Of a DNA stretch of 53,608 bases, positions 14,458-53,145 are shown piece after piece. Position 1 is the stretch's first letter; each line of letters opens with the position of its first letter. The DNA is taken from the IMG/VR virus record IMGVR_UViG_3300025646_000055, positions 1 to 53,608 of that record. One strand, given 5' to 3'. Below the pieces are notes generated by a model. That model was not told where the DNA came from. It searched no databases and saw nothing but the letters and a program-made list of their open reading frames with translations. The translations under genes were made by a program, and so were the position numbers. The stretch is from a virus.

Positions 14458-14463
14458 ATTTAT

Positions 14464-14539
14464 AGGGTAGTAGAGGAGTCAGGTTTATCTCGCTACATTT
14501 GGGATGTAGAGCACGCTGGTTCGAATCCAGTTTACCCTA
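14464..14539 (+). tRNA. tRNA-Pro(TGG), second copy
   Basis: Acceptor AGGGTAG/TTACCCT, D stem GAG/CTC, anticodon stem CTACA/TGTAG with loop TTTGGGA, T arm GCTGG-TTCGAAT-CCAGT. Different body from the Pro tRNA at 8413. Confidence 0.9.
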
Positions 14540-14547
14540 CCATAGTA

Positions 14548-14613
14548 TGGTCTAACAAATGCCTGTGCCAGAATGTCGACCAAAATGCAGGGATATGTAG
14601 GTAATGACTTACC
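14548..14613 (+). ncRNA. Small spacer RNA, possible pseudoknot
   Basis: TGGTC (14548-14552)/GACCA (14578-14582) crossed by a short CCTG/CAGG, followed by hairpin GGTAA (14600-14604)/TTACC (14609-14613). Weaker than the other elements. Confidence 0.4.
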
Positions 14614-14621
14614 ATTTCACA

Positions 14622-14695
14622 GGTCCTTTAGCTCAGATGGTTAGAGCAACTGACTCATAATCAGTAGGTCGTAGGTTCAAATCCTACAAGGACCA
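14622..14695 (+). tRNA. tRNA-Ile2 or Met (CAT)
   Basis: Acceptor GGTCCTT/AAGGACC, anticodon stem ACTGA/TCAGT, loop CTCATAA, T arm GTAGG-TTCAAAT-CCTAC. The body looks like Ile2(CAT), which needs lysidine from the host TilS, but Met cannot be excluded. Confidence 0.9.
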
Positions 14696-14724
14696 CTAAA
14701 AAATTAAAGGTTTTTTCAAGATAA

Positions 14725-14757
14725 TTTGGATGTTTGAAATTTTGTTTGTATATTTAT
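14725..14757 (+). promoter_or_regulatory. Early-type promoter of the giant RNA
   Basis: TTTGGATGTTTGAAATTTTG then TTTGTATATTTATG, followed within 30 nt by a boxA-like site and then no protein gene for about 1 kb. Confidence 0.7.
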
Positions 14758-14782
14758 GTATAATAAAGATTTAAAACAAAAC

Positions 14783-14800
14783 GTTCTTTAACATATTAAA
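14783..14800 (+). promoter_or_regulatory. boxA-like antitermination element
   Basis: GTTCTTTAACATATTAAA; GTTCTTTAACA is the closest match in the window to rRNA boxA. It begins the leader of the giant structured RNA. Confidence 0.6.
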
Positions 14801-14804
14801 AAAT

Positions 14805-22484: not shown

Positions 22485-22811
22485 ATGAAACTTAACGAAT
22501 TAAAAAAAATAGTTAAAGAATCAGTAAAAGAAGCCATTCAAGAAGAATTGAAAGATATTCTACTTGAAGCAGTTCGTTCTCCTAAACAATACATACAAGA
22601 AAGTGTTTCTATACCTACCCCACAACTTTCATCAAAACCTATAATTGATGCTAAAAAATCATATATGGATGTAATGAATGAAACAGCTTTAAGTTTTAAT
22701 TCTTCAAATGCACAAACATTTAATCCTAGACAACCTGGAGTTGATCCTATAAATGGAAATTTACCATCAGGTGAATTAAGTTTAGAGCAAATTTCAAGTT
22801 TAATGAAATAA
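22485..22811 (+). CDS. Small virion protein with capsid-targeting-like leader
   Basis: 108 aa. The N-terminus LNELKKIVKESVKEAIQEEL continues to KDILLE at residues 23-28, then AVRSP. This amphipathic helix ending in L-L-E before Ala resembles a T4 capsid-targeting sequence with its prohead-protease site. The rest is Ser/Pro-rich and disordered. It has its own late promoter inside the baseplate cluster. Packaging inside the head is inferred, not shown. Confidence 0.5.
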   Translation: MKLNELKKIVKESVKEAIQEELKDILLEAVRSPKQYIQESVSIPTPQLSSKPIIDAKKSYMDVMNETALSFNSSNAQTFNPRQPGVDPINGNLPSGELSLEQISSLMK

Positions 22812-23228: not shown

Positions 23229-25090
23229 TGGCTAAGAATAGAGATATAAAATATATAAACAGAGATTTTGGTTCTTTCAGACAAAGTCTTATTGATTATG
23301 CTAGGACCTATTTCCCAACATCATATAATGATTTTTCCCCTGCTTCTCCAGGTATGATGTTTATAGAAATGGGTTCTTATGTAGGTGATGTTCTTTCATT
23401 TTATTTGGATAACCAATTACAAGAAACATATTTACAATTTGCTCGTCAAGAAAACAATTTATTTGAATTAGCTTACATGTTTGGTTATAAACCTCGAGTA
23501 ACTGGGGTTGCAACTACTAATATTGATTTCTATCAACAAGTACCAGCTATAGAAAGTGGTTCTGGGGATTATATTCCTGATTATTCTTATGCTTTATTTG
23601 TAAATCAAAATGCTTCTATTAAATCTACAAGTAACAGTGCTGTAAGATTTTTAGTTCAAGATGATTTGAATTTTGCATCTTCAGGGTCTTTAGACCCAAC
23701 TGAAGTAACTGTTTATTCAGTTGATGGAAGTGGTAACCCAACATTTTTCTTATTAAAAAAATCAAGAAAATCTATTTCAGCTACCATTAATACTACTACA
23801 GTTTCTGTAGGTGCTCCTCAATCATTTTTTACAACTACTATTAATGATTCTAATATTGTAGAAATTTTAGATATTGTTGATTCTGATGGTAATGAATGGT
23901 ATGAAGTAGATACTTTAGGACAAGAAACCGTTTTTGATACTGTAAGAAATTCTAATGCTTTTGATCCTAATTTTACTTCAGATTCAGGGGATGTTCCTTA
24001 TCTTTTAAGATTAAGAAAAGTACAAAGAAGATTTGCTACTAAATTTTTAAATTCAGGATCTATTCAACTTCAATTTGGTGCAGGTAAAACTACAGATGAT
24101 GATGAAAGTATAATTCCTAATCCTGATAATGTAGGTATAGGGTTACCTTTTGAAAAGGTAAAATTAACTACAGCTTTTTCACCAACTAATTTTATATTTA
24201 CTAATACTTATGGTATTGCTCCTTCTAATACTACTTTAACTATTAGATATTTAACTGGAGGGGGTATTGAAGCTAATATTCCTTCTAATGATTTAACTAC
24301 TTTAACTGCTAATATTGAGTTTTTAAACAGTAATTTAGACCCAACTACAGCACAAACTGTTTTTAATTCAATAGCTGTAACTAATCCAACTGCTTCAAGT
24401 GGAGGTGGTGATGGTGATTCTATAGCAGAAATTAGGCAAAATGCTATTTCAAATTTTTCTACTCAACAAAGAACAGTAACTGCTGATGATTACTTAATTA
24501 GAGCTTTAAGTATGCCTTCTAATTATGGTTCAGTTTCTAAAGCTCATATTACTCCTGTTTCTTTAAAAGATTCACCTAATGCTGAAAATACCCCAATTTT
24601 AGATTTATATGTTTTAACATATGATCAAAATAAAAATTTAGCAATCCCTACACAAGCTTTAAAGCAAAACCTTAGAACTTATCTTTCTCAATATAGAATG
24701 GTAGGTGATACTGTTAATATAAAAGAAGCTTTTATAGTTAATATAGGTATTAATTTTGAGATAATAGTATTACCTGATTATAATAGTAGTGAAGTAATTT
24801 TGAATTGTATTAATTCCTTAATAGATTATTTTAATATTGATAATTGGCAGATTAATCAACCTATTATTTTAAAAGAATTAAATGTATTATTAGATAGAGT
24901 AGAAGGAGTTCAAACTGTTAAAAATATAGAAATAATAAATAAAACAGGTGAAAATTTAGGATATTCAAGATTTGGATATGATATATTAGGTGCTACTGCA
25001 GGTAATGTTATTTATCCTTCCTTAGACCCTATGATTTTTGAAGTTAAATATCCTACAACCGATATTCAAGGTAAAGTTGTATCATTTTAA
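23228..25090 (+). CDS. gp6: Baseplate wedge protein, gp6/J-like
   Basis: 620 aa. The N-terminal INRDFGSFRQSLIDYARTYF and SPGMMFIEMGSYVGDVLSFY (about 11-61), and IAEIRQNAISNFSTQQRTVT plus ADDYLIRAL (about 399-428), are hallmarks of the gp6/J baseplate wedge family. Two gp6 copies and gp25/gp53 partners form the wedge clamp around the hub. It starts on the last base of the gp25-like stop. The next gene has its own late promoter. Confidence 0.85.
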   Translation: MAKNRDIKYINRDFGSFRQSLIDYARTYFPTSYNDFSPASPGMMFIEMGSYVGDVLSFYLDNQLQETYLQFARQENNLFELAYMFGYKPRVTGVATTNIDFYQQVPAIESGSGDYIPDYSYALFVNQNASIKSTSNSAVRFLVQDDLNFASSGSLDPTEVTVYSVDGSGNPTFFLLKKSRKSISATINTTTVSVGAPQSFFTTTINDSNIVEILDIVDSDGNEWYEVDTLGQETVFDTVRNSNAFDPNFTSDSGDVPYLLRLRKVQRRFATKFLNSGSIQLQFGAGKTTDDDESIIPNPDNVGIGLPFEKVKLTTAFSPTNFIFTNTYGIAPSNTTLTIRYLTGGGIEANIPSNDLTTLTANIEFLNSNLDPTTAQTVFNSIAVTNPTASSGGGDGDSIAEIRQNAISNFSTQQRTVTADDYLIRALSMPSNYGSVSKAHITPVSLKDSPNAENTPILDLYVLTYDQNKNLAIPTQALKQNLRTYLSQYRMVGDTVNIKEAFIVNIGINFEIIVLPDYNSSEVILNCINSLIDYFNIDNWQINQPIILKELNVLLDRVEGVQTVKNIEIINKTGENLGYSRFGYDILGATAGNVIYPSLDPMIFEVKYPTTDIQGKVVSF

Positions 25091-25104
25091 TATTTATAAA
25101 TAAA
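25089..25104 (+). promoter_or_regulatory. Late promoter
   Basis: AATATTTATAAATAAA directly before ATG 25107; contains TATAAATA. Confidence 0.65.
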
Positions 25105-25106
25105 AA

Positions 25107-26279
25107 ATGGCTGTATATAAATTATTTCCTAGTAAAGATACAACTATATACTCTTTATTTCCTTCAATGAACACAGGGTTAGATGAAATCCTTGAAGCTA
25201 CTACTACAACTTTTGGTGCTAATAATACTATAAACCCTCAAGTAAGTAGATTTTTAATCCAATTTGATCAAACAGAAATTAACAATATTATAAATAGTAA
25301 AATCTCAGGATCTAATTTTGATGTTTATTTAAATTGTTTAGTTTCCACAGTAACAGGATTAACATTAAGTTCTTCAATTGTAGCTCACCCTTTAGCTAAA
25401 GAATGGCAGAATGGAACAGGTAAGTATTTAGATAATCCTTTAACAGAAGATGGAGCCAGTTGGAGATTCTCAGATTATTCTGGAAGCACAGTTTGGACAA
25501 CTGGAATCTTTGATTCTAATACTACAGCTTCATATAACACAACTTACTCTGTTATAGGAGGAGGTTTATGGTATATAACAGGAAGTAGTTTTAATCCTGT
25601 TATTTCAGCCTCACAAGAATTTTCTTTATATGAAAGTAAAGATATAAGTTTAAATGTGTCTTCTGCTGTTAAAGAATGGTATAGTGGTAGTTTAAATAAT
25701 TATGGATTTATTTTAAAACAACCTAATAGTCATGAATTTGTAAATAATAGTGAGTATCAAGTAGAATTAAAATATTTTTCTAGGGATACTCATACCATAT
25801 ACCCACCATATTTAGAATTTAGATGGAATGATTATAATTTTGATACTGGATCTTCCACATCTACTATAATTACTTCATCACAGGCTTATTTCTCACTACA
25901 AGAAAACCCAGGTGTTTTTAATGAAAATTCAGTAAATAGATTTAGGATTTATTCTAGGCCTAAATACCCTGCAAGAGTTTATCAAACATCTTCATTAACT
26001 GCTACTAACTATTATTTACCAGAATCTTCATCTTTTGCTTTAAAAGATTTGGATACTAATGAGTATGTTATTAATTTTGATTCTACTTATACTAAAATAA
26101 GTGCTGATTCTGAATCTAGTTATTTTGATATATACATGAATGGTTTAGAACCTGAAAGATATTATAAAGTTTTAATATCGTGTAGTTTAGGGGGAAATCA
26201 ATTAATAGTTGATGATGGTATGTATTTTAAAGTAAATAGAGAAGGATCAAATTTTGGTAGCTATGGTAACCAATATTAA
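25107..26279 (+). CDS. Tail/baseplate protein, DNRLRE-like beta domain
   Basis: 390 aa. The opening FPSKDTTIYSLFPSMNTGLDE and a following jelly-roll-like strand pattern resemble DNRLRE-type domains (KDTTIY...N.G....L), used in cell-wall and virion surface proteins. Ser/Thr/Gly-rich throughout. It lies between the gp6-like gene and the giant tail protein and is likely exposed on the baseplate periphery. No T4 homologue recognised. Confidence 0.55.
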   Translation: MAVYKLFPSKDTTIYSLFPSMNTGLDEILEATTTTFGANNTINPQVSRFLIQFDQTEINNIINSKISGSNFDVYLNCLVSTVTGLTLSSSIVAHPLAKEWQNGTGKYLDNPLTEDGASWRFSDYSGSTVWTTGIFDSNTTASYNTTYSVIGGGLWYITGSSFNPVISASQEFSLYESKDISLNVSSAVKEWYSGSLNNYGFILKQPNSHEFVNNSEYQVELKYFSRDTHTIYPPYLEFRWNDYNFDTGSSTSTIITSSQAYFSLQENPGVFNENSVNRFRIYSRPKYPARVYQTSSLTATNYYLPESSSFALKDLDTNEYVINFDSTYTKISADSESSYFDIYMNGLEPERYYKVLISCSLGGNQLIVDDGMYFKVNREGSNFGSYGNQY

Positions 26280-40382: not shown

Positions 40383-40400
40383 ATATATTTATACATAAAC
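40383..40400 (+). promoter_or_regulatory. Late-type promoter
   Basis: ATATATTTATACATAAAC, 9 nt before ATG 40409; it starts the internal-protein cassette. Confidence 0.5.
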
Positions 40401-40408: not shown

Positions 40409-41374
40409 ATGATATCATTATTAAAATTAATATTAGAGGATAATGGTAATCCTAAAGGTATTATACTAGCTGGAGGTGCTGGTGTTGGAAAATCATATGT
40501 GGTTAGAAATTTATTAGGAGATTTAAATGAAAAAACTGGAATTTTTACCCCTAAAGGTTCAAATTTAAAATTTAAATATATGAACCCTGATGATATTGTA
40601 GAAAAAGAAGGAACTTCTTTGGGGGTAGCTATGGGGAAATTTAAAGAAATATTCCAGGATGCTCAAAATAAAAAAGAAAATATCATTTGGGATACTACCG
40701 CAGCTAATATCAAAAATACAATGGCTCAAATGCCGGGGTATGATAAATTTATGGTTATGGTTTATACTCACCCTATAATTTCGTTGTATCAAAATGCAAA
40801 AAGGGAAAGAACATTACCTATGGAAGCTGCTATTAAAACTTGGGATGGTGTTTACAGTAATATAGAGGAATATAAAAAATTATTTGGAGATAAATTTGTT
40901 TTAATTAAAAATGTTATCCCTGGATATGAAAAACAGGTTCAAGAATTTGATAAAGCTGTAGCTGGTGGTAAGGATAGTTTAAAACAATACTTAGAAAATT
41001 TAATAGCTAACAATCAAGAACAATTTAAATCTTCATTTTCAAAAGAATTTGAATTTGAAAATAAAGAAATTGAACAGGCGTTTAATGATGCTTTACCTGA
41101 AACCTCTTACGATGAGAAAAAAGATAAGAGTATTTTAAAAGGAGTGAAAAAAGAATTTCAAAAAGATTATTTAAAAAAGAATGAAGATCCTGGTTCTAAA
41201 GTATTAGAAAAAAAACTCCAGTCAGCTCGTAATACAAAAGAAAAAAATGAACAAAATTACAATGAAGATTTAGAAGGTATTGTTAATAAATTAACATCTT
41301 CTAAATTTAAAGAAATTACCGAACCTAATTCTGAAGAAGATATCAAATCTAAATTTAATTCTTTTTTAAAATGA
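40409..41374 (+). CDS. P-loop kinase (zeta-toxin-like) with leader
   Basis: 321 aa. A short leader LLKLILE (4-10) is followed by Walker A GGAGVGKS (22-29), then NPDDIVEK and IIWDTTAAN (about 91-99), a layout like zeta-toxin and polynucleotide kinases, and RERTLPMEAAIKTWDGVY, a lid-like helix. The C-terminal third is a Lys/Glu coiled region. The leader ends in L-x-E, as in the other proteins of this cassette, so packaging in the head is possible. The substrate may be a nucleotide, a sugar nucleotide or RNA end. It overlaps the next gene by ATGA. Confidence 0.65.
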   Translation: MISLLKLILEDNGNPKGIILAGGAGVGKSYVVRNLLGDLNEKTGIFTPKGSNLKFKYMNPDDIVEKEGTSLGVAMGKFKEIFQDAQNKKENIIWDTTAANIKNTMAQMPGYDKFMVMVYTHPIISLYQNAKRERTLPMEAAIKTWDGVYSNIEEYKKLFGDKFVLIKNVIPGYEKQVQEFDKAVAGGKDSLKQYLENLIANNQEQFKSSFSKEFEFENKEIEQAFNDALPETSYDEKKDKSILKGVKKEFQKDYLKKNEDPGSKVLEKKLQSARNTKEKNEQNYNEDLEGIVNKLTSSKFKEITEPNSEEDIKSKFNSFLK

Positions 41375-43887
41375 ATGAATTGTCTCAATTTTTAGTAGAT
41401 AGCATTTTAAATGAAGCTGAATCTGATGTAATTACTGCTTTATTTGGGGGAGGTTTTAAACCACCTACTAAAGGCCACTTAGAGGTAGTTTTAAAAGCTA
41501 TTCAAGACAACCCAGAAATAGACCAAGTTTATATAATTGTTGGAGCCGGGGTTAGAAATGGCATTTCACAAGAACAATCTGTTAAAATCTGGGAGAAATA
41601 CAAAAAATTAATCCCTAAAACTACAGAAATTATAGAAGCAGGTTCTCCTATATCTTGGATAAAAGATTATTTAAAAGATCATTCTGAAGATAAAACCTAT
41701 ATTTTAATAGGGGCTAGAGAGGGTGATGAAGAAGATGAAAAAGATTTAGAACAAAGATCCAATTTACTCCAGAAATATGGGGGTGAAATAAAACCTATTT
41801 ATACTAAAGGTGGAATTAGTGGTACAAAAGCAAGAGAAGCTGCTAAACAATCTAAAGAAGCATTCTACCAATTTATCCCTGATCAATTTTCAGATTCAGA
41901 TAAAGAAGAAATTTATAATATTATAATACCAACACTAAATGAGGTAGATGAATTAAAAGAAAATTTAAATGAAAATGCTACATATTCTTCAGATATAGAT
42001 TATAAACAACATATTAAAGAATTAACTAAACATATGTTAGAGAAGGGTATGAATATTACCCCATTACCAAAAGTAATATTTAGAAATGGTGATAGTAATA
42101 ATGCACGTAATTTCTTTGGTAAAACAGCATATTATGACCCAAATACTCAAACTATAGTACTTTATACTGAGGGTCGTCATCCTAAAGATATTGTCCGTTC
42201 ATTTTCCCATGAAATGATACACCATATCCAAAATTTAGAAGGCAGATTAGGTAATATACAGGGTACAAATACAATGGAAGATGACCATTTAGATAAATTA
42301 GAACAAGAAGCTAATTTAAATGGTACAATGACATTTAGAAATTGGACTGATAGCTTAAACGAAAAGAAAAATAAAGATCCATTTGGTATAAATCAATATG
42401 CTCGTGAATTAGCTAAAGGTTTAGAAGAAGAATTAGACGAAGGTCGTAAAAAGAAAAAAGACCCTAAAACCGGTACAGGTAAAAAATTAGATATACCTGG
42501 TGGATTAGAAGAAGGTAAACAAGTTGGTCTTTTATATCATTTTACTAGTACAAATTCATTAGATAAAATATTAAAAGATAATAAAATAAATGGTTCTTTT
42601 ATGTATGAAGTAGGTGATAAAGAATTATATGGTGTTTCTACTACTCGTAATAAAAATTTAAATTATGATCTTCAAAGAAATAATGTAAGAATAACTCTTG
42701 ATGGTAATAAATTATCTAATAATTATAAAATAACTCCTAGAGATTATTTTGAAAGACAATATAATATTCCTGATAACCCCCAAACAATTGATGAAGACGA
42801 GGAAGTTATTTTAACACCTAAAGGATACATTAATAATATAAAAAATTATATTTTAGCTGTTGATAAAGTAAAAGATTTAGAAGAAAGTAGAAAAAAGAAA
42901 AAAGACCCTAAAAAAGGAACAGGTAAAAAACCAGAAGGATCTGGTCGTAAAAATTTTAATGTAGAAAACGTAAGACAAGTTCCTATAAATGAAAATGTTC
43001 CTAGTGCCAAAGATGATGGTAAAGCTACCCCTTATGGTTCAGGGTATGAAAAAGTTAAGGAAGAAATGTTCCAATCTTCAAAAATTGAAAACCAACTAAA
43101 ACAAAAATACTTAGAAGTATTAGAAAAACTTTTCTTATTTGAAAAAGGTAATTATATTGAACTTAATTTAATTAAAATTAAACCCGAATATAAAGGTAAA
43201 GGATGGGCTACTAAAATATTAGATGATTTATCCGAATATGCTCAAGAAAATAATAAAATATTAACATTAACTCCCTCAGATACTTTTGGAGCTTCTAAAT
43301 CAAGATTAGAAAAGTTTTATAAACGTTTTGGTTTTGTTCCTAATAAAGGAAAAAATAAGGATTTTACTACTAAAGATACAATGATTAGACCCTTAAGTGA
43401 AGATACAAGTGAATTATTTACTATCTATTTGGATATGGATGGTGTTATTGCTGATTTTGATAAAAGATTTACTGAACTAGCAGGTATGGGTCCTAGAGAA
43501 TATGAAGATTCTTTTGGTACTGAAAAATTTTGGGATTTTATTGATAATAAACACGGTGTTAAGTTTTGGACTGGTATAGAATGGATGCCTGAAGGTCAAA
43601 AACTATACAATTTTGTTAAACAATTTGACCATAAATTACTATCAGCCCCTTCAAGAAATGATGCTTCTAAAATAGGTAAAAGAATGTGGGCTAAGAAAAA
43701 TACCCCAGGAACTCAATTGATATTAGCTGCAGCTGTTAACAAACAAAATTATGCTGATAAATCTAATATATTAATTGATGATAGAGAAAAAAATATCCAA
43801 CAGTGGAAAGATGCTGGTGGAATAGGTATTTTATTTAAATCTACAGATCAGGTTATTGATGAGTTAAAAAAGATTATGAATTTATGA
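41371..43887 (+). CDS. Five-enzyme polyprotein (NTase-peptidase-ART-GNAT-HAD)
   Basis: 838 aa. Modules: leader 1-15 ending SILNE; cytidylyltransferase-type domain (GGGFKPPTKGH, 26-36; ISGTKAR, 149-155); Zn-peptidase HEMIHH (280-285) with E313 as possible third ligand; ADP-ribosyltransferase-like YHFTSTNSLDKIL (389-401), STTR (423-426), DEDEEVIL (474-481); GNAT acetyltransferase YKGKGWATKIL (607-617); HAD phosphatase YLDMDGVIADFD (686-697) with LIDDRE (801-806). L/I-x-E sites at 189-191, 199-201, 329-331, 355-357, 379-381, 503-505, 539-541 and 675-677 fall at the module boundaries. Lys-rich linkers KKKKDPKTGTGKK and KKKKDPKKGTGKK repeat. Likely cut by the prohead protease and injected; this is inference. 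Confidence 0.7.
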   Translation: MNELSQFLVDSILNEAESDVITALFGGGFKPPTKGHLEVVLKAIQDNPEIDQVYIIVGAGVRNGISQEQSVKIWEKYKKLIPKTTEIIEAGSPISWIKDYLKDHSEDKTYILIGAREGDEEDEKDLEQRSNLLQKYGGEIKPIYTKGGISGTKAREAAKQSKEAFYQFIPDQFSDSDKEEIYNIIIPTLNEVDELKENLNENATYSSDIDYKQHIKELTKHMLEKGMNITPLPKVIFRNGDSNNARNFFGKTAYYDPNTQTIVLYTEGRHPKDIVRSFSHEMIHHIQNLEGRLGNIQGTNTMEDDHLDKLEQEANLNGTMTFRNWTDSLNEKKNKDPFGINQYARELAKGLEEELDEGRKKKKDPKTGTGKKLDIPGGLEEGKQVGLLYHFTSTNSLDKILKDNKINGSFMYEVGDKELYGVSTTRNKNLNYDLQRNNVRITLDGNKLSNNYKITPRDYFERQYNIPDNPQTIDEDEEVILTPKGYINNIKNYILAVDKVKDLEESRKKKKDPKKGTGKKPEGSGRKNFNVENVRQVPINENVPSAKDDGKATPYGSGYEKVKEEMFQSSKIENQLKQKYLEVLEKLFLFEKGNYIELNLIKIKPEYKGKGWATKILDDLSEYAQENNKILTLTPSDTFGASKSRLEKFYKRFGFVPNKGKNKDFTTKDTMIRPLSEDTSELFTIYLDMDGVIADFDKRFTELAGMGPREYEDSFGTEKFWDFIDNKHGVKFWTGIEWMPEGQKLYNFVKQFDHKLLSAPSRNDASKIGKRMWAKKNTPGTQLILAAAVNKQNYADKSNILIDDREKNIQQWKDAGGIGILFKSTDQVIDELKKIMNL

Positions 43888-44462
43888 AAAAAGATAATGT
43901 TTTAAAAAAAGAGTTTAGTAAACGAGATGTAGAACGCATGCGTAACCTTGTAAAGGGAAATACAGGGAACAGAACAACTCAAGGTGTAGGTTTTTCTAAA
44001 AAACAAGAATTTCATAAAGAAGGAGATGTATGGGAAGAAGATGGTAGGACTTGGACTATTAAAAATGGTTTAAAACAAAATATAACTAAATTAGATAAAG
44101 CTAAAAAAGCACATTTATTTCCAATGTTTTGTCCTTCTTGTAAGTCTAAAATGACTCCCCATATTGATAAACAATATTATAAAATACATAAAAAATGTTT
44201 AAATTGTGTTATTGATATGGAACATCAAATCCGTGTTGAGGGAAGATGGGAAGAGTATGAAAAAGAAATGAAAAATAAAGAAATTGATTCTATTATAGAA
44301 GATTATACAAAATGGATAAATGATTTTATCCAAGGTAATACTCAATCTTATATTGCTGAAAATGGTGATATAGAGACTTGGAAAGAAAATACTAATAAAG
44401 AAGAATTAGTTAAAAGATTAGAGGAAGGTATTGCTTTTCTTAAAAGTATGAAAGTTTCTTAA
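43884..44462 (+). CDS. Zinc-finger phage protein
   Basis: 192 aa. C83-x2-C86 (FCPSCKSKM) and C105-x2-C108 (KKCLNCV) make a four-Cys zinc knuckle followed by MEHQIRVEGRWEEYEKEM. The N-terminal KKEFSKRDVERMRNLVKG is helical and basic. I have seen this zinc-domain pattern in T4-like marine phages without a known role. It overlaps the polyprotein stop (ATGA) and so is co-translated. Nucleic-acid binding is plausible. Confidence 0.65.
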   Translation: MKKDNVLKKEFSKRDVERMRNLVKGNTGNRTTQGVGFSKKQEFHKEGDVWEEDGRTWTIKNGLKQNITKLDKAKKAHLFPMFCPSCKSKMTPHIDKQYYKIHKKCLNCVIDMEHQIRVEGRWEEYEKEMKNKEIDSIIEDYTKWINDFIQGNTQSYIAENGDIETWKENTNKEELVKRLEEGIAFLKSMKVS

Positions 44463-44466
44463 AATT

Positions 44467-44484
44467 AATATTTATATTTATAAT
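44467..44484 (+). promoter_or_regulatory. Possible late promoter
   Basis: AATATTTATATTTATAAT immediately before ATG 44487; a doubled ATATTTATA half-element. Confidence 0.45.
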
Positions 44485-44486
44485 AT

Positions 44487-44663
44487 ATGGGAATATTTGA
44501 TAAATTAAAATACGGTAACACTTTTGGTAAAACAGTTTCAATTAAAGATACTGTAGTAAAACAATATCCAAAAGAGATAAAACAAGTAGAAGAACCTATA
44601 GTTGAAAAACCTAAATCAAAAAAGAAATCAACCCCATCTTTGGATATCGAAGAAACCCTTTAA
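44487..44663 (+). CDS. Hypothetical 58-aa protein
   Basis: 58 aa, MGIFDKLKYGNTFGKTVSIK then a Pro/Lys/Glu-rich tail ending SLDIEETL. It sits directly after a late-type element and ends at the base before the next ATG. The tail is probably disordered. A small internal head protein is possible given its neighbours; no family recognised. Confidence 0.55.
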   Translation: MGIFDKLKYGNTFGKTVSIKDTVVKQYPKEIKQVEEPIVEKPKSKKKSTPSLDIEETL

Positions 44664-47267
44664 ATGTTTAAAATGAAAGACTTAAAAAAAATACAAGAAT
44701 TCTTTTCTAAACCTATAAACGAAGAAGAAAAATCATTTGCTGATTATTCTAATAATGAGTTAGCAGCATATCTTAAAAATAATCCTACAGATACAAAAGC
44801 ATCATCCGAACTTCATAAACGTTCTCAAAAACTTAAAGCTTTAACTAGAACAGATGAATCAGTAAACGAAGGCATGTATAAAAAAGAAGGATGGCTTGTA
44901 AAATCAAATGATGATGATACTAAATATATTGTTGTCCATACATCTGATGTAGAAAATAAATCAAATAGAATTAGTGATATTTATAAAGATAAAAAACTAG
45001 CTATCAAAAGAGCAGCTTTTCTAAACAAAAAATTAAGAGGATTGGATGAATCTATACTAAGTGAAAAGAAACCAAGTAAAATAGTTTGGGATACTAAAAA
45101 AATTTCTGCTGCAAAAAGAATCAATGTTAGAAAGTGGTACATGAAAACCTATCCTATCGATGAACTTGGCGGTGAAATAAATCAAAAACTTACACTATGG
45201 GATGTTTACACTTACTTATCACAGGGGTATGATGTATATAAAGTTATCGGTGTATCTGATAGTGTTATAAGAGAAAGAGTATTTGAAAAACTATCTAAGG
45301 TTCTTGATGTTGATTACGATACTATTTACAATATGTTTGAATCAGTAAATGAAGCTCAGTTTAAAGACTTACAAATAGGAGATGAATTTTTAAGATTTGG
45401 TAAAAATGGCCAACTTTGGGTAAAAACATCAGACAGGCAAGCCAAATTTGTGAAAAATGTGGGTAAAAAAACAGCTAAATATAACAAAAGTTCGGGTTCA
45501 TTAGAGGTTTTTCCACCAACGATGGATATAACCTTAGAATCAGTAAACGAGGCAACCCCTATTCAAAAGATTTTTCGTAAGATAGGTTGGGGTGGTGATT
45601 GGTGGACTCCACAAGATTATGCAAAACAGATAAAAAATTTACCTGATAACACTTTAAAAATTTGGTATAACTCTGCTAAATCTAATAAAGGTATTCCAAA
45701 TACTCCACTAGCATTTCAACAAAAATTAACAAAGATTGAAATGGAAAAGAGAGGTCTTTTAGAATCAGTATATGAAAATAATCTAGGACATGCTGAAGTA
45801 AGAAAAGTAGAAAAAAATTTATCTCTTGCTCAAAAAGAAGAGTTATCTAAATTAATAAAATCTGGAAAGATTAAAACAAGTGATGATCTTAAAAATTGGC
45901 TACCATCCATAAAAGAATCAATAAATGAACAAGAATACGCTAAACCATCTATCAGTGATTACAAAGTAGGTGATATTCTTAAATTTAAAGATGGAGAAGA
46001 ATGGTTAGTTGTTAAACCTGGAATGAGGGGATCTTCTAATCGAAGAAATTCTGATGAAATTACCATCAAACCTTATAATAAACTAGCAAAAGATAGAAAC
46101 GTTAGTTTAGCTATTGATGCTACTATATCATATCTAAATGATGTAGTTGATAAGATCATTAAAAAATCAGCTGATAATGTTAATGAAGCAATTATAAGTA
46201 ATAATCTAGATAAAATGGTCGACCTAGTTGTAGAAGGTGCTGAACCTAAGAATGTACTAGAAACTAAAGAAGAAGATCTTCAACTAAAAAATCTCCATTC
46301 TAAAATAGAAAAATATTATGGTAGAAAATTAGAACCTAGCCAAATTAATACACTCCAGGGTAAAGATAAGGTAATATCTAATTTATTATCACAATATCGA
46401 AAATTATCTAGAAGTTTAAACGAACAAGAAGAAGATCCAATCGATATCATCACAATGGATGTTCCATTATTTATCCGTGTTTTAGAATATGCTAGAGAAG
46501 ATGCCCAAGCAGATATGGATTTACACGATTTAACTGAAAAAGCAATTGCCGCTACTAAACAACAAGGTATACTCCAGATGGACGATTATGATATGTTAGT
46601 TGGTGAATTAGAGCAATTAAATGAAGAATTTCTTAACCCAGGTAAAAGACCTATTATAACAAATAAACAAGGTGAAAAATTTGTTTTACAAGGATTTACA
46701 ATTGGGGGATATTATTTAATTCCATATGATGGTTATAAATATTGGGAGCATTTTAGAGTACCTAAAGAACAATGGATACCAGAAAAATCAATTAATTGGG
46801 GTGATTATAATTTTACTCAACAACAATTTGAAAAACTTAAGGCTTTTAACAGTGAGAAAGAAAAAGAAGTAAATAAAAAATTTCAAGATATGAATGAAAT
46901 CCAATCTTTAGAAGATCAAGCTAAAGTTTATTGGATGCAACAATTAAAAGCTGGTAAAATTGATAAACTACCTAAAGATCCTAAAGAAGCATTTTTAATC
47001 CAAATGATGAAAGATCAAATAGATCACGATGAAGAAACTTTACGTCGTGAACGTGGTTTAGAAGAAAAAATTCGTGAAATCATTGAAACTATTAAATTAG
47101 GTCAAAATTTAAATGAATCTACACTTTGTAAAAGAGGTCAGGACTACATTAAAGCAAGAAAAGCTGCCGGAGAAAAATCATCAGCTTATCTTTCAGGTCG
47201 TGCAGTAAAAGTATGTAAAGGTGATATTAAATTTAAAGGTAAAAAACAAAAAGATTTTAAAGGATAA
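44664..47267 (+). CDS. Putative internal-head polyprotein with V/I/L-N-E repeats
   Basis: 867 aa. Leader KKIQEFFSKPINE (8-20), then repeated candidate cleavage sites: SVNE (66-69), SVNE (227-230), SVNE (293-296), SINE (419-422), NVNE (505-508), SLNE (584-587), QLNE (651-654) and NLNE (815-818), several followed by Gly or Ala. Pieces between sites have different folds: beta barrels such as YKVGDILKFKDGEEWLVV (about 433-450), helical units, and a C-terminal CKRGQDYIKARKAAG domain seen in marine phage proteins. ATG 44673 is an alternative start. Function: likely several small packaged proteins made as one chain. Confidence 0.6.
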   Translation: MFKMKDLKKIQEFFSKPINEEEKSFADYSNNELAAYLKNNPTDTKASSELHKRSQKLKALTRTDESVNEGMYKKEGWLVKSNDDDTKYIVVHTSDVENKSNRISDIYKDKKLAIKRAAFLNKKLRGLDESILSEKKPSKIVWDTKKISAAKRINVRKWYMKTYPIDELGGEINQKLTLWDVYTYLSQGYDVYKVIGVSDSVIRERVFEKLSKVLDVDYDTIYNMFESVNEAQFKDLQIGDEFLRFGKNGQLWVKTSDRQAKFVKNVGKKTAKYNKSSGSLEVFPPTMDITLESVNEATPIQKIFRKIGWGGDWWTPQDYAKQIKNLPDNTLKIWYNSAKSNKGIPNTPLAFQQKLTKIEMEKRGLLESVYENNLGHAEVRKVEKNLSLAQKEELSKLIKSGKIKTSDDLKNWLPSIKESINEQEYAKPSISDYKVGDILKFKDGEEWLVVKPGMRGSSNRRNSDEITIKPYNKLAKDRNVSLAIDATISYLNDVVDKIIKKSADNVNEAIISNNLDKMVDLVVEGAEPKNVLETKEEDLQLKNLHSKIEKYYGRKLEPSQINTLQGKDKVISNLLSQYRKLSRSLNEQEEDPIDIITMDVPLFIRVLEYAREDAQADMDLHDLTEKAIAATKQQGILQMDDYDMLVGELEQLNEEFLNPGKRPIITNKQGEKFVLQGFTIGGYYLIPYDGYKYWEHFRVPKEQWIPEKSINWGDYNFTQQQFEKLKAFNSEKEKEVNKKFQDMNEIQSLEDQAKVYWMQQLKAGKIDKLPKDPKEAFLIQMMKDQIDHDEETLRRERGLEEKIREIIETIKLGQNLNESTLCKRGQDYIKARKAAGEKSSAYLSGRAVKVCKGDIKFKGKKQKDFKG

Positions 47268-47707
47268 TGAAGGATTTTGATTTAAAAAAATACCTAAAAG
47301 AAGGTAAATTATTTGAAGCTATAATGGCTTGTCCTTTACCTACTCAAGATTTAGAACTTAACACTAAAAATAGAGATTCTGCTATTAAAGCTGACTATAT
47401 TAAATATGGTCCTTTAAATGTTGATGAACCAGGAGATTATTGGGAAGAATTAGCAGAACACTGGGATACAACTGTTGAAGCTGCTAAACAATCACTTTGT
47501 GCCAATTGTGCTGCTTTCGATATTTCTCCTAGAATGGATGATTGTATGCCTGGTCCTTTACAAGATAAAGATGGTAGATTAGGATATTGTTGGATGCATA
47601 GTTTTAAATGCCATTCAGCACGTACTTGTAGAACTTGGGCTAAAGGAGGTCCTATTACTGAAGATAAAATATCTTATGAGTGGCAAGAACGTAAAGGAGA
47701 AGAATAA
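47267..47707 (+). CDS. Cys-rich protein with capsid-targeting-like leader
   Basis: 146 aa. The leader FDLKKYLKEGKLFEA (3-17) resembles T4 capsid-targeting peptides with L-F-E before Ala. The C-terminal half has CANCAAFD, C-x-P-G, GYCWMHSFKCHSARTCRTW: seven or more ordered Cys/His that could hold zinc or an Fe-S cluster. The start overlaps the previous stop by one base. Metal type and function unknown. Confidence 0.6.
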   Translation: MKDFDLKKYLKEGKLFEAIMACPLPTQDLELNTKNRDSAIKADYIKYGPLNVDEPGDYWEELAEHWDTTVEAAKQSLCANCAAFDISPRMDDCMPGPLQDKDGRLGYCWMHSFKCHSARTCRTWAKGGPITEDKISYEWQERKGEE

Positions 47708-47708
47708 A

Positions 47709-47987
47709 ATGACATCTGAAAGACTACAAGAAATAATTCAAGAATCTTTACGTGATTGGTTTAAAAAAGAAAAATGGGTAAAGATTAATACTGCAGGTAC
47801 TATTGAAGGACCTTGTGGCACTATGGATAAAGATGAACCTACTCAACGTTGCCTCCCTAAAGCAAAAGCTCAATCAATGACTAAAGCACAACGTGCTGCT
47901 ACAGCTAAAAAGAAAGTAGCAGGTTCTCGTAAAGGAAAACAATTTGTTAAAAATACCAAAAAAGGTGAATATAAGAAAAAATCATAA
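47709..47987 (+). CDS. DUF6321-like basic protein
   Basis: 92 aa from ATG 47709; the frame opens earlier at 47676 but that overlaps the preceding gene. EKWVKINTAGTIEGPCGT and RCLPKAKAQSMTKAQRAATA match the DUF6321 pattern I know from phages (WV.I...G.I.GPCGt...RCLPk.KA.sl). The C-terminus is very basic (RKGKQFVKNTKKGEYKKKS), so DNA binding in the head is plausible. The N-terminal helix ERLQEIIQESLRDWFKK is leader-like. Confidence 0.65.
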   Translation: MTSERLQEIIQESLRDWFKKEKWVKINTAGTIEGPCGTMDKDEPTQRCLPKAKAQSMTKAQRAATAKKKVAGSRKGKQFVKNTKKGEYKKKS

Positions 47988-48001
47988 TATTTATAAATAA
48001 A
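47986..48001 (+). promoter_or_regulatory. Late promoter
   Basis: AATATTTATAAATAAA, containing TATAAATA, 10 nt before ATG 48012. Confidence 0.65.
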
Positions 48002-48011
48002 ATATTCTATA

Positions 48012-48854
48012 ATGGACAACTTTGATTTTAAAAAATACTTAGCTGAAAGCAAATTGCATGAGAACATGGCTGTAGAAATAACAGCAAAAATTGCTCAAAA
48101 AATAGCAGATGCTTTTACAGCTGATGATGATCTAGACCTTAAATATGTTGTAAATCCTCGTATTGACGCAGGTTCATTCGATCTTGATGTTGAAGCAGGT
48201 CCTAACACCCCTGGTGAAGATTCACTTGGTCAAGATATCGATAACTACCTTGGCGAATTCGCAGGTGGTTCTTTCTATATTAAAGACGGAGTAGTTTATA
48301 ATGCTGCTATGCGTAATGCTCCGGTTGCCAATGTAACCCCAGAAGGTGAAGTTGAAATGATCTCAGCTGCAGATTCAAGAGCAGCCATTGATTCACAAGA
48401 TGATATCCCAGCAATTGATAGAATGTATAACTCTGATGCTTGGGTGCAAGCTCAAAGAGATGCAATGGGAGAATCTAAAGAAGAAAAAAAATCAAATAAA
48501 ATGAAAAAATCCGAATTAAAAGAAATGATCCGCCAAGCAATGCTTGCTGAGACTAATTCTATAAAAGAACAAGAAGAAGAAGTAGCTGATGAAATTGAAA
48601 TTGAAGGTGAAGAAGAAACAACTGAAGAACCTGAAATAAAAGATGGAGAAGATACTCCTGAATTAGGTGGTAGTAACCAAAAAATCTTAAATGATTTAGA
48701 AGCAGCTTTAGAAGGTGCCAAACAAATGGGAGATGAAAAACTTGTAAATCAAATAGGTAATACAATTACATTTTTTACTCGTCAATATATTGTAAAAGAA
48801 GAAGATCTATTTGAAATAAAAAGAATGAAACGATTAGCTGGAATTTTAAAATAA
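48012..48854 (+). CDS. Acidic internal/scaffold-like protein
   Basis: 280 aa. The leader FDFKKYLAESKLHE (4-17) resembles capsid-targeting peptides, and a second one, KKSELKEMIRQAMLAE (about 164-179), lies in the middle, before a long acidic stretch (EEEVADEIEIEGEEETTEE). It ends in basic EIKRMKRLAGILK. This alternation of leader, globular part, leader and acidic tail would suit a prohead-core or internal protein trimmed during maturation. It has its own late promoter. Confidence 0.55.
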   Translation: MDNFDFKKYLAESKLHENMAVEITAKIAQKIADAFTADDDLDLKYVVNPRIDAGSFDLDVEAGPNTPGEDSLGQDIDNYLGEFAGGSFYIKDGVVYNAAMRNAPVANVTPEGEVEMISAADSRAAIDSQDDIPAIDRMYNSDAWVQAQRDAMGESKEEKKSNKMKKSELKEMIRQAMLAETNSIKEQEEEVADEIEIEGEEETTEEPEIKDGEDTPELGGSNQKILNDLEAALEGAKQMGDEKLVNQIGNTITFFTRQYIVKEEDLFEIKRMKRLAGILK

Positions 48855-48856
48855 AA

Positions 48857-48870
48857 TCTATAAATAAATA
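48857..48870 (+). promoter_or_regulatory. Late promoter
   Basis: TCTATAAATAAATA contains TATAAATA (48859-48866), 10 nt before the histone-like gene at 48877. Confidence 0.6.
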
Positions 48871-48876
48871 AAAATT

Positions 48877-49047
48877 ATGAATACACAAGAATTAAAAGAA
48901 AAAATTGATGCTTTATACGAAGTATTTACAATGGAACACGAAGGTAAATCTAAAGCAGCACATGGTAGAGCTCGTAAAGCATTAGGTGAAATTAAAAAAC
49001 TTATAACTGAATACAGAAAAGTATCAGTTGCTGAAGATAAAAAATAA
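48877..49047 (+). CDS. Histone H1-like DNA-binding protein
   Basis: 56 aa. The layout MNTQELKEKIDALYEVFTME, KSKAAHGRARKALGEIKKLI, TEYRKVSVAEDKK matches, by eye, the short histone H1-like proteins encoded by Bacteroidota chromosomes (helix, then basic A-x-RARKA...I.KL...FRKVS). Such proteins bind and compact DNA. Its own late promoter and its place among internal-head genes suggest a role in packaged or newly injected DNA rather than in the host nucleoid early on. It was probably acquired from the host. Confidence 0.7.
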   Translation: MNTQELKEKIDALYEVFTMEHEGKSKAAHGRARKALGEIKKLITEYRKVSVAEDKK

Positions 49048-49051
49048 AAAC

Positions 49052-50596
49052 ATGCTTAACGAACGCAAACTTACCAAAGCTGAACTCAATAAGAGAGAGG
49101 ATATTATTAAAGACATGAAAAAAAACAAAAGTGCCTTAGTTAAACGTTATGGTAAGGATGCAGAAAAAGTAATGTATGGTCGCGCTACTAATATAGCTAA
49201 AAAACAAGCAGAAAACATGGAACAACCCAATTCTAGACTTAAAGAAATGATTAAGGATGCTTTAAAAAATCCTAAAAAAGCTGATTTAAATAAAGATGGT
49301 AAACTTTCAGATTACGAGAAAAAACGTGGTGCTGCTATTGAAAAAGCTATGGGGAAAGAAACTTTAAAAGCAAAAGACAAAATAAAAGAAGCTCGAATTT
49401 CTTCGGATAATAGAGTAGAATATCTTCAACATGTTTTAGATATGGTTTGGAAAAGAGGTAGAGAGAACAATCAAATTGATTTAAAATCATTATCCCAATC
49501 ACTTGTTGATGACATGTTTGATGAGTCCTATGAGGAAAAACGTGATGTTACTATTGAAAAAGCTATGGGGAAAGAAACTTTAAAAGAAGGTATCCCTACA
49601 GATTTATCACCTCTTGCATTTAATATTTTACATCATTCTCTTAGAAGGGGGTATATTACTCTTGAAGAAGCTACAGATGAAAGCGTAATAGGTGTAGCTG
49701 AAGAAGTTGCAGGATATCATGAAGATGATGAAGAAATTGGTTCAAGCGATATGACCTTTATTGTTAAAGAATTTTTAGATGGTATTGGTAAAAAAACTGA
49801 TTTTGAAAATGGGCGCTTAGTAGTAAGTAAAGATGAGGAATCCAAATTAGTAAGAGAAGCATTTTTACTAGATACTGATATTGAAGATATCGCTACCGCT
49901 TTAGGTTATTCTGATATATACAGTTTCTTTGAAGATAACCCGGGTGCTGTTGATGCTATCTATGATTGGGTTAAAACGGTTCCTGAATATAGAGATAAAC
50001 TTAAAGATGCTGATTTAAAAGAAGATTTAGATCTAGGTCATCAGGATAATGAACCAAATATGCTTAAAAAAGATTTATACCATATTGGAAAATATGCTAT
50101 GGAACTATATCAAATGATGGTTGGTTTAGAAGGTATGGGAGAAGTTGATTTTCCACACTGGTGGCAATCCAAAATAATCAAAGCTAAAGAAATGGTTTCT
50201 TCAGCTAAACATTATTTAGAATTTGAAACTAAAGAACCTGAAATTGATGCTATGGTAGATGTTGCTCAAAGTGTTGAAGCTATTGATGAAAATGCAGATA
50301 AATGGAATAAGATGAATGCTGATGAAAGAGAAGAAGCCCTATTAACTGTATTTAAAGACCCAGATGATGCTTTAAAATATATTGATTTTAAATGGAGTGA
50401 TCTTCCAGATATTGCTATTTCAAATTTACGTTTAAAAGAAATAAAAAAAGAAGGTTTAAGAGGGTTAATGCACAGTTCAAGTAAAGAGGCAAGAGCTAGA
50501 GATACTGAAGAAAGTGATAGAGAATATATAAGAACTAGACAACAAAGAGAAAAAGAAATAGCAGCTAAATTAGCTAAACAATTAAAGTCTAAATAA
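49052..50596 (+). CDS. EF-hand-containing internal protein
   Basis: 514 aa from ATG 49052 (an upstream in-frame ATG overlaps the histone-like gene). It begins MLNERKL, a leader-like L-N-E. DLNKDGKLSDYE (78-89) is a complete EF-hand-type calcium loop (D78, N80, D82, S86, E89), followed by KKRGAAIEKAMGKETLK, which is repeated later as KRDVTIEKAMGKETLK. The remainder is helical and acidic. The N-terminal KSALVKRYGKDAEKVMYGRA segment is common in marine phage proteins. Likely a virion internal protein; function unknown. Confidence 0.55.
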   Translation: MLNERKLTKAELNKREDIIKDMKKNKSALVKRYGKDAEKVMYGRATNIAKKQAENMEQPNSRLKEMIKDALKNPKKADLNKDGKLSDYEKKRGAAIEKAMGKETLKAKDKIKEARISSDNRVEYLQHVLDMVWKRGRENNQIDLKSLSQSLVDDMFDESYEEKRDVTIEKAMGKETLKEGIPTDLSPLAFNILHHSLRRGYITLEEATDESVIGVAEEVAGYHEDDEEIGSSDMTFIVKEFLDGIGKKTDFENGRLVVSKDEESKLVREAFLLDTDIEDIATALGYSDIYSFFEDNPGAVDAIYDWVKTVPEYRDKLKDADLKEDLDLGHQDNEPNMLKKDLYHIGKYAMELYQMMVGLEGMGEVDFPHWWQSKIIKAKEMVSSAKHYLEFETKEPEIDAMVDVAQSVEAIDENADKWNKMNADEREEALLTVFKDPDDALKYIDFKWSDLPDIAISNLRLKEIKKEGLRGLMHSSSKEARARDTEESDREYIRTRQQREKEIAAKLAKQLKSK

Positions 50597-51057
50597 TGAC
50601 TAGAGAAGACCTTATTCAAAAGATAAAATTATTAGCTCCTCAAGTACTTTCTTCTGTTAAAAAAGCAGAAGAAACTGCTGTTGAATACGATGAATTAACT
50701 AAATTCCCAGAATTAAAAAATATAATTGTAAATTTATTAACTTCTGATTATGGTAAATTTATAGATTCAATTGATTGGGTAGCTCCAAAACCAACAACTT
50801 TTAGAATAAATCTTTTGAATGATCAATCTTTTTATTTAATTTTCAATAAACGTAGTTGGATTGCTGAAATTGAAGGTAAAAAATATTACCTATTAAATTT
50901 ACCTGAAGAAGAAATGGCAACTAAATCTATAGCTCGTATTTTAAGATATGGAGCTAAAATTGGAAAAGAAGAAGGTGATACTGAAGAAGGTGGAGCTGAT
51001 GTTGAAGGAGCAGAAGAAATAGAAACCCCAGAACCAGAATCAACAGAAGAAGTATAA
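50596..51057 (+). CDS. Hypothetical protein with acidic tail
   Basis: 153 aa, overlapping both neighbours by one base (TAATG junctions). A globular part (about 1-120; FRINLLNDQSFYLIFNKRSW) is followed by an acidic, disordered tail (EEGDTEEGGADVEGAEEIE). Possibly a partner of the nuclease candidate encoded next. No known family. Confidence 0.55.
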   Translation: MTREDLIQKIKLLAPQVLSSVKKAEETAVEYDELTKFPELKNIIVNLLTSDYGKFIDSIDWVAPKPTTFRINLLNDQSFYLIFNKRSWIAEIEGKKYYLLNLPEEEMATKSIARILRYGAKIGKEEGDTEEGGADVEGAEEIETPEPESTEEV

Positions 51058-52298
51058 TGGATCCTATATTAAAATTTTTAAATAGTGTAGCATATAAATT
51101 TCCTAAAGGATACCCTGACATGAATAATGAGCAGGATGTTCTTTTTTTAGAATCTTTATTAAATCAAGTTTTAAAAAAATCTTTTAGTTTTAATATTTTA
51201 AAAGAGGAGTTATTTGTATTTGAAGCTACAGACAGAGAAATTTCATCAAATACTAAAAAAGCTATTGAATATATTATTCAAAATGCTGATTCATCTTTAG
51301 GGTTCAAAACTCAAACAGATAAAAATCGTTTAGGTAATCCTTCTAAAATTGACCCTGAAAAAGTACAACAAATCTTTAAAGATTTAATAGGTGTAGAAGG
51401 AGAAATTACAATTTATAACCCACGTTCAGGTCCTAATCCTTCAGGTAAATTTGATATGTACGAATTTGATTCTGAAAAATTTGGTCCTGTTAGAATTATT
51501 TTAAGTGGAGGTGGAAACGCAGGAGAAAAGTATGAACAAGAATTTGTAGATAAAGCTAAAGCAACAGCTGGAGATACCAAAGATAATCTTCCAACTGATC
51601 TTAAAACATTATATTCTGCTTTAAATATTGATAGTGAAAAATTAACTGCAGATGATATTGAATTTGCAGGAGCTACTGATACAAAAAGATCCTTATCTTT
51701 AGAAGGTCCTAAAAATGTAGGTGCTACTATTTCGGATATGGTTATTAAATATAATGGTAAAGAATATTATATTTCATTAAAAAATAAAGCAGGTTCAGGT
51801 ATTTACTCAGGTAAAAATATACCATTCATTTATGAAAAAGATGGTAAAGTAATATATGATGCTTCTAAAAAAGGAAGTGCCCCTGGAATTGATTTATTAT
51901 TTGATATTTTTAACATTGATAGAGAAAAATTAGCTCAAGGTATTAATAATTTTATCAATCAAGAAGGAGAAGTTGATAATTGGTCTTCAGTAGATATTGA
52001 TAAAAATAAATTTAAAAATTTACTTGCTTCATCTTTAGGATATGGTTATTATTATGTGAGAGAAAAAGGTAAAGGTGATGTTAAAGTTATTCCTTTATTA
52101 ACTGCTGAAGATGCTTTAGATGCCGTAGGTACTATTATAGACACCCAAATTAAATATCCAGGCCCTAATACTAAACAATTAACTATAAAAATTGATACTG
52201 ACAGTCCTATATTTGGAGCTTCACAATATCAAGTAATGGTTAGAAATACTCAAGGAAAAATATTACCATTATCATTAAGAATTTCAAAAATAAAATAA
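51057..52298 (+). CDS. Candidate PD-(D/E)XK-type nuclease
   Basis: 413 aa. The middle has GEKYEQEFV (156-164), then ISDMVIKYNGKEYYISLKNK (225-244): Glu helix, Asp strand (D227) and S-x-K strand (S240, K242), the order seen in restriction-endonuclease folds with a relaxed third motif. The N- and C-terminal thirds are unrecognised. In a cassette of packaged proteins, an injected nuclease could attack host DNA; this is conjecture. If the fold call is wrong, it is an unclassified late protein. Confidence 0.45.
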   Translation: MDPILKFLNSVAYKFPKGYPDMNNEQDVLFLESLLNQVLKKSFSFNILKEELFVFEATDREISSNTKKAIEYIIQNADSSLGFKTQTDKNRLGNPSKIDPEKVQQIFKDLIGVEGEITIYNPRSGPNPSGKFDMYEFDSEKFGPVRIILSGGGNAGEKYEQEFVDKAKATAGDTKDNLPTDLKTLYSALNIDSEKLTADDIEFAGATDTKRSLSLEGPKNVGATISDMVIKYNGKEYYISLKNKAGSGIYSGKNIPFIYEKDGKVIYDASKKGSAPGIDLLFDIFNIDREKLAQGINNFINQEGEVDNWSSVDIDKNKFKNLLASSLGYGYYYVREKGKGDVKVIPLLTAEDALDAVGTIIDTQIKYPGPNTKQLTIKIDTDSPIFGASQYQVMVRNTQGKILPLSLRISKIK

Positions 52299-52299
52299 T

Positions 52300-53145
52300 A
52301 TGTGTAAATGTGGATGTAATACTTGTGATGTTGAAAAATCAACGTTAATACTTAATGAAAGCTTAGCTCCACGGGGTATACTGTCTGAAGGTCTTAAATA
52401 TCATTTAGACCATAAAAAACCGTTAACAGAACATATTTATCGTGCTGGTTCTGAAAATTATTTTAATTTATGGGCTGAAGCCCGTTCTTTATATTCTCGT
52501 AATATTTTAGAGATTACAAATGCAGATGATTTAGCAGTTTTAACTGAAACAGATTTAGGTCATTTTGGTATATTAGAAAATGGAACTAAAGTGCCTTTAG
52601 ATTTTCCTATGGTGAATGAAGAAGAAATAGGTGAATTCCCATTTGAATACAAAGGATTCAAATACAATGTAGAAGATACAGGTGGGATGATTGATGGCTA
52701 TGGTAGAAAAGTATGGCAAGTTTCAATCCAAGATAAAAATGGGGATGTAGAAACTACAAACGTAAGAGGTTCTAGTGATAGAGAAGGTCATCAGGAAGCA
52801 AAAAAATTCATAGAAGATGAATTGTTACCTTACTATGGATTAGACGAGGCAGCTAAGAAGAAGAAAAAAGATCCACCAATTGGAAAACCAATGCGTGATT
52901 CATCAGGTGGTAAAGCATACAAAGTATACGTTCGCGACCCTAAAACTAAAAAAATTAAAACAGTACGTTTTGGTTCAGGTGGGTTAAGGGCAAAGTTAGA
53001 TAACCCTAAAGCTAGAAAAGCTTTTGCGGCTAGACATAAATGCGGTACTGGGGAACCAAAAACAAGTGCGCGATATTGGTCTTGTAGAATTGGTAGATAT
53101 TGGAAATTATTAGGGGGTTCAAAAAACTTTAGTGGTTTTTGGTAG
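52300..53145 (+). CDS. DUF5872-like C-terminal domain protein
   Basis: 281 aa. N-terminal CKCGCNTCDVEKST (2-15), possibly metal-binding, then leader-like ILNES and ILSEG. The middle has a small beta domain (EYKGFKYNVEDTGG, VWQVSIQDKNGD). After a Lys-rich linker LDEAAKKKKKDPP, the last 90 aa (GKPMRDSSGGKAYKVYVRDP; KARKAFAARHKCGT; TSARYWSCRIGRYWK) match a domain widespread in marine T4-like phages that I know as DUF5872. The same KKKKDP linker style occurs in the 838-aa polyprotein. Confidence 0.65.
   Translation: MCKCGCNTCDVEKSTLILNESLAPRGILSEGLKYHLDHKKPLTEHIYRAGSENYFNLWAEARSLYSRNILEITNADDLAVLTETDLGHFGILENGTKVPLDFPMVNEEEIGEFPFEYKGFKYNVEDTGGMIDGYGRKVWQVSIQDKNGDVETTNVRGSSDREGHQEAKKFIEDELLPYYGLDEAAKKKKKDPPIGKPMRDSSGGKAYKVYVRDPKTKKIKTVRFGSGGLRAKLDNPKARKAFAARHKCGTGEPKTSARYWSCRIGRYWKLLGGSKNFSGFW

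Follow-up and report, generated by a model that had tools for sequence, protein, structure and literature searches.

The question raised by this locus is whether a run of genes at its right end encodes proteins carried in the phage head, and how such proteins would be addressed and processed. The window, meaning the whole 53.6-kb IMG/VR virus fragment analysed, derives from a T4-like phage that is uncultured and has a relative in Flavobacterium phage immuto, a complete cultured phage genome (NC_055915, 160 kb; host Flavobacterium sp. LMO8), and its gene order of baseplate, fibres, primase, exonuclease and cassette is the same in immuto. There the cassette comprises gp089-gp076 (106.2-118.9 kb) and is followed by the terminase, the portal, three small genes, the prohead protease gp070 (Pfam Peptidase_S77, the gp21 family, E=8.9e-35), further small genes, gp067 in the scaffold position and gp066, the T4-type capsid protein (MCP). 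The original prediction of head-packaged cargo was to fall if the genome had no gp21-like protease; Peptidase_S77 lies downstream of the cassette in immuto and, together with the cassette on one strand, in four other contigs. Since the window stops before the protease region, its own phage would have the enzyme by analogy with these relatives; contig G002 carries two genes matching the right end of the window and then TerL about 8 kb further on. The reading favoured here, at a probability of roughly 0.7, is T4-type capsid targeting combined with prohead-protease processing of multi-enzyme precursors, in which we infer both packaging and cleavage.

The genes concerned, named by their first position and with a slash after each candidate cut site, are as follows.

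40385-40397, + strand: promoter-like element ATATTTATACATA upstream of the gene that opens the cassette, with a further one at 47987-47999 ahead of 48012
40409-41374, + strand: P-loop kinase (zeta-toxin / polynucleotide-kinase-like), 321 aa, Pfam Zeta_toxin 2.6e-6, above cut-off; it starts with the leader MISLLKLILE/ (40409-40438, + strand; LLKLILE/D)
41371-43887, + strand: putative 838-aa multi-enzyme precursor (from domain matches, a structure model and comparison with sibling contig L001), leader VDSILNE/A
43884-44663, + strand: two genes (43884, 44487), no leader recognisable
44664-47267, + strand: putative 867-aa precursor, leader ...KPINE/ at aa 1-20 (FSKPINE/E), further candidate sites at aa 69, 134, 230, 296, 422, 508, 587, 625, 654, 745 and 818
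47267-47707, + strand: 146-aa protein, leader A MKDFDLKKYLKE/GKLFE/ at 47267-47317 (KKYLKE/GKLFE/A)
48012-48854, + strand: 280-aa protein, leader A at 48012-48062 (KKYLAE/SKLHE/N), internal leader C MKKSELKEMIRQAMLAE at 48501-48551, scaffold-like C-terminal tail KRMKRLAGILK at 48819-48851
49028-50596, + strand: protein starting MLNE/RKL, in-frame ATG at 49052
50596-52298, + strand: two genes (50596, 51057), no leader recognisable
52300-53145, + strand: 281-aa protein, sites after aa 20, 30, 44, 83 and 107 (in order LILNE, GILSE, PLTE, VLTE, MVNE)
22485-22811, + strand: gene outside the cassette, surrounded by baseplate genes; [IV]xE is repeated in it, and it has KDILLE/A; immuto counterpart gp114

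The T4 internal proteins IPI, IPII, IPIII and Alt carry capsid targeting sequences that are cut by gp21, and the first ten residues of IPIII, which gp21 removes, suffice for targeting (PMC9026906). All six leaders originally quoted (in genes 40409, 41371, 44664, 47267, 48012 and 22485) are found at the genes named, and gene 52300 adds further sites, LILNE/S and GILSE/G. Their description as amphipathic helices holds for five of the six (helical moment 0.45-0.67) and fails for 48012 (0.23); the property does not discriminate, none of the six clearly exceeding its own shuffles in helical moment. The terminal glutamate motif is more informative, even though [ILV]xE is weak and occurs by chance in the same N-terminal stretch of ~22-24% of unrelated proteins. 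It ends at residues 8-24 in 7 of 11 cassette proteins of the window vs 9 of 41 others (Fisher p=0.013) and in 10 of 13 vs 39 of 166 in immuto (p=0.00016), the [ILV]xD control being flat in both comparisons. Pooled over relatives, observed over expected is 2.00 in the cassette (z 12.6), 2.72 in the head block just upstream of the MCP (z 15.5) and 1.05-1.13 in other gene classes, again with no enrichment of N-terminal [ILV]xD; as the sequences are kin, these z-scores make the evidence look more independent than it is. Counted along entire proteins, [ILV]NE occurs 3.5 times per 1000 aa in the cassette, 3.7 in head genes and 0.5-1.1 elsewhere, against 0.5-0.9 for [ILV]ND in all gene classes. The N-terminal (I/L)xE leader of T4-type internal proteins is thus present, in the leader-bearing genes only. 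The proposal that head cargo bears T4-like targeting leaders stands up to the computational tests run, and packaging of the bodies behind them is what these leaders suggest. The claim that about 13 kb is devoted to such cargo is overstated, because several cassette genes (43884, 44487, 48877, 50596, 51057) have no recognisable leader.

A second part of the original prediction, that most genes follow TATAAATA-type promoters, does not hold: the exact TATAAATA lies at most 60 nt upstream of 2 of 13 cassette genes (48012, 48877), and most cassette genes abut or overlap one another. A longer near-palindromic element, ATATTTATA[AC]ATA, is a candidate late promoter, with five exact + strand copies in the window (18402, 22464, 25090, 40385, 47987), every one of them 12-25 nt ahead of a gene start: two precede cassette genes (40409 and 48012) and three precede genes outside the cassette; with one mismatch allowed there are 15 matches vs 2.6 expected.

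Gene 40409 shows the behaviour of a leader within a single family. Among 51 distinct orthologs the P1 glutamate is invariant (51/51) and sits four residues before a conserved PK; only L or I occurs at P3 and P4, with variable residues at P2 and P1'-P4'. In four orthologs leader A (e.g. MDNFDLVKYMVEGRLLKE) stands in place of MISLxxLLxE, and the replacement ends at the invariant glutamate. The structure model of the kinase has a mean pLDDT of 89.5 and falls below 50 only at residues 6-11, the predicted cut site, and Foldseek with this model returns polynucleotide kinase and zeta toxin.

Such exchangeable tags recur on many proteins. Leader A, of 17 residues with the consensus MDNFDLKKYLAEGKLxE, is found by regular expression on 91 proteins with 42 unrelated body clusters, and one contig has six consecutive genes with leader A on differing bodies. 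Its codons show more synonymous than non-synonymous change (pS 0.61 vs pN 0.16), a comparison that is biased by selection with the regular expression. Leader C (MKKSELKEMI...LxE) occurs at N-termini and also inside six fusion proteins, in four of which, 48012 among them, its methionine is kept. In immuto, gp079 ends in a relative of 50596 that is joined on behind a leader-C-like stretch, as read by eye. Another tag is a tail: R[MWF]xKLAGI and near variants occur 75 times in 704,062 aa (0.72 expected by composition in 886k aa), at 59 C-terminal, 13 near-N-terminal and 3 internal positions. Of the C-terminal cases most belong to the scaffold gene adjoining the MCP, whose tail reads RMxKLAGI, and the rest to cassette proteins, 48012 of the window among them; cargo has the motif at N-termini as well. 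Microcystis phage Mel-JY01, which is more distant, also has the KLAGI tail on its gene in the scaffold position; the tail is not general to T4 scaffolds, T4 gp22 being without it. A short-peptide tblastn of leader A and KLAGI against all phage records returned immuto only, in a search insensitive enough to miss the Mel-JY01 scaffold tail. That cargo bears the tail of the scaffold suggests that the two have a common docking partner.

Outside the head block there are further genes that carry leader A, KLAGI or a MIKLIDLLTES-type start, three of them neighbours (immuto, L213, 1803-2318 and 24569-25774; L081 60009-60353); these are possibly cargo encoded elsewhere.

The two large genes, 41371 and 44664, look like polyproteins with [ILV]NE-type sites in the linkers between domains. 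The chain encoded by 41371 has four assignable enzyme domains and one other module.

aa 1-15: leader
aa ~22-186: nucleotidyltransferase
aa ~202-330: zincin (HEMIHH), weak matches to DUF6782 and Peptidase_M91
aa ~384-506: module without assigned family
aa ~557-673: GNAT
aa ~683-836: 5'(3')-deoxyribonucleotidase
after aa 15, 191, 201, 331, 541 and 677 (nucleotides 41415, 41943, 41973, 42363, 42993 and 43401): candidate cut sites

The match of the zincin to MPTase-PolyVal (E=0.2) is below the family cut-off. An assignment of aa 384-506 as an ADP-ribosyltransferase, made by eye on the analogy of T4 Alt, was rejected, because Pfam lent it no support and the module has just seven distant relatives. 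Six of the seven [NST]E sites in the chain (15, 191, 201, 331, 541, 677) fall in linkers of low model confidence or at their edges, a mapping that covers this one protein and in which low linker pLDDT comes partly from thin alignments; the seventh (aa 622), inside a GNAT helix of the model, is probably not cut. The counterpart of 41371 in sibling L001 has extra modules between PTLNE and ELNE and behind SLNE, and these are flanked by further LNE or LAE motifs. The deoxynucleotidase occurs as its own gene in 14 cases, most with a leader, and fused into a longer chain in 24 cases, usually behind an [ILV]xE-type motif. The candidate sites of 44664 would delimit modules of ~30-125 aa; relatives of this protein align over few modules only, and homology with L001 breaks at aa 20, 586 and 745, on or adjoining sites. 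Module breaks in 49028, counted from 49052, are at aa ~100, 173, 318-323 and 405. A lysine-rich linker, KKKKDPKxGTGKK, is repeated in 41371 (window 42442-42500 and 42890-42945), and L001 has another domain behind one copy, so that this linker may be a further seam of module exchange.

Across the cassette loci, 210 of 1505 breakpoints between relatives lie within 4 aa of [ILVM]NE vs 41.6 expected (~5-fold), and the [ILVM]ND control stands at 0.86 of expectation. Since relatives share breakpoints, repeated contexts were removed; in the 241 breakpoints left, [ILVM]xE is found at 86 vs 37.7 expected (2.3-fold) and the [ILVM]xD control at 37 vs 40.8 (0.91). Modules therefore differ between related phages at [ILV]NE-type sites, with a negative aspartate control. 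These module differences, the internal sites and the tag common to the scaffold are stronger features that the original prediction had missed.

The MCPs listed keep (I/L)(V/I)xE at the T4-type position before a variable stretch, and by eye this corresponds to FLTE/A of T4 gp23. The cassette would encode late precursors destined for the prohead core, many with an address tag, whether an MCP-like helix (MIxLxxLLxE), leader A, leader C or the KLAGI tail, that would draw them along with the scaffold into the growing head. There the S77 prohead protease would remove the leaders, by T4 precedent also cut the capsid protein at (I/L)(V/I)xE, and split the large precursors where their linkers have [ILV]xE sites. 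The predicted nucleotidyltransferase, zincin, GNAT, deoxynucleotidase and kinase would be freed inside the head and delivered with the DNA. Since a module has sites on both sides, it could pass from one phage to another or be set apart as a gene that has a leader to itself. These features suggest a large protein payload, loaded into the phage head and matured there. It is somewhat probable, in our estimate, that the prohead is a processing compartment in which polyproteins, partly addressed by the scaffold tail, are cut into injected enzymes, the sites doubling as seams for module trading.

Cutting of the chain by its own zincin and not by the prohead protease, on the lines of the proposal of Iyer et al. 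for P1 DdrB, would make 41371 a self-processing polyvalent protein. The 838-aa protein does contain a zincin with HExxH, as weak DUF6782 and Peptidase_M91 matches indicate, and embedded peptidases have been suggested as a means of release by Iyer et al. (PMC5512222). However, the 867-aa protein has the same [ILV]xE sites, as do small proteins that bear a leader but no zincin and head genes near the MCP, and the site motif is that of gp21-type proteases (PMC9026906), so that we consider self-processing quite unlikely. The motifs might instead be uncut linkers between domains, or seams of recombination carried along as the modules spread: breakpoints coincide with the motifs on this account too, and exchange at gene starts could preserve short shared leaders. 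Selection on the peptide is nevertheless indicated by the P1 glutamate of 40409, invariant while both of its neighbours vary, by the lack of any [ILV]xD effect and by the excess of synonymous over non-synonymous change in the leaders, biased as that comparison is by the regular expression; the motif is moreover common to head proteins that are cut by T4 precedent. Uncut seams are an improbable explanation, if a shade less so than the zincin.

The leaders could also address some other assembly, such as the tail, the baseplate, the membrane or the early infected cell, as the tagged genes off the head block might imply (immuto 1803 and 24569-25774, L081 60009, and 22485 among baseplate genes of the window). 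Against this, the KLAGI tag is the C-terminus of the scaffold itself, encoded beside the MCP, the sites have the same motif as the MCP, and genes downstream of the MCP show no enrichment; a destination other than the head interior is as doubtful as self-processing. Targeting to the head and cutting by the prohead protease remain the preferred account of tags and sites together.

The cassette resembles the T4 internal proteins in having short N-terminal leaders that end in hydrophobic-x-Glu and are separable from the body, and an S77 protease in the same head gene order. It differs in the many more candidate genes and the several recurrent leader types, and it goes beyond T4, as read from sequence, in the enzyme chain with sites at its joints and in the scaffold-tail tag. 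The multi-domain "polyvalent" proteins of phages and conjugative elements, which Iyer et al. (2017) compared with polyproteins, likewise have many small domains per chain, with metallopeptidase, GNAT and zeta-type kinase in common, rapid domain rearrangement and proposed packaging (PMC5512222); release is attributed there to embedded peptidases, whereas here a prohead-protease-type site is present at most joints and the short address leaders are common to head proteins. Many head-packaged proteins are known also from SPN3US and phiKZ-type phages, whose ejection proteins are cut after Glu (PMC10052503, PMC5694885), with several prohead-protease cuts within one propeptide in SPN3US (PMC10052503); those sites are in discarded propeptides of 111-254 residues, and the sites here are predicted to lie between folded enzyme modules. 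The capsid targeting signal of P1 DarB, also N-terminal, sends a large protein into the capsid, but the N-termini of the P1 Dar proteins have no common consensus (PMC9024508), unlike the leaders here that recur on dozens of unrelated proteins.

No report of enzyme chains processed by a prohead protease was found in the open-access literature searched (subscription papers and preprints were outside its scope), which yielded no arrangement nearer to this one than the four just compared, and such processing would be, within that literature, an unreported strategy of tailed phages. The same literature yielded no virion proteomics, mass spectrometry or packaging data for immuto, a phage in culture (on Flavobacterium sp. 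LMO8) whose virion proteome could put the central claim to the test. The scaffold-tail tag gives a testable prediction on the entry of cargo into a T4-like head. If the reading is correct, tags and sites could reveal the cargo of this phage group in its sequences, and the proteins delivered at the start of infection could be listed.

Other features of these genomes may be recorded. In Mel-JY01 a gene for ribosomal protein S21 lies in the head block between the prohead protease and the scaffold (L222 22183-22410). At 3084-3620 the window encodes a 178-aa protein with an alanine-tryptophan-rich repeat (AAWNAAWSAAKDAA...), and at 8414-15405 it has 29 tRNA genes called within 7 kb, a nearly full set, many with short unassigned stretches between them.
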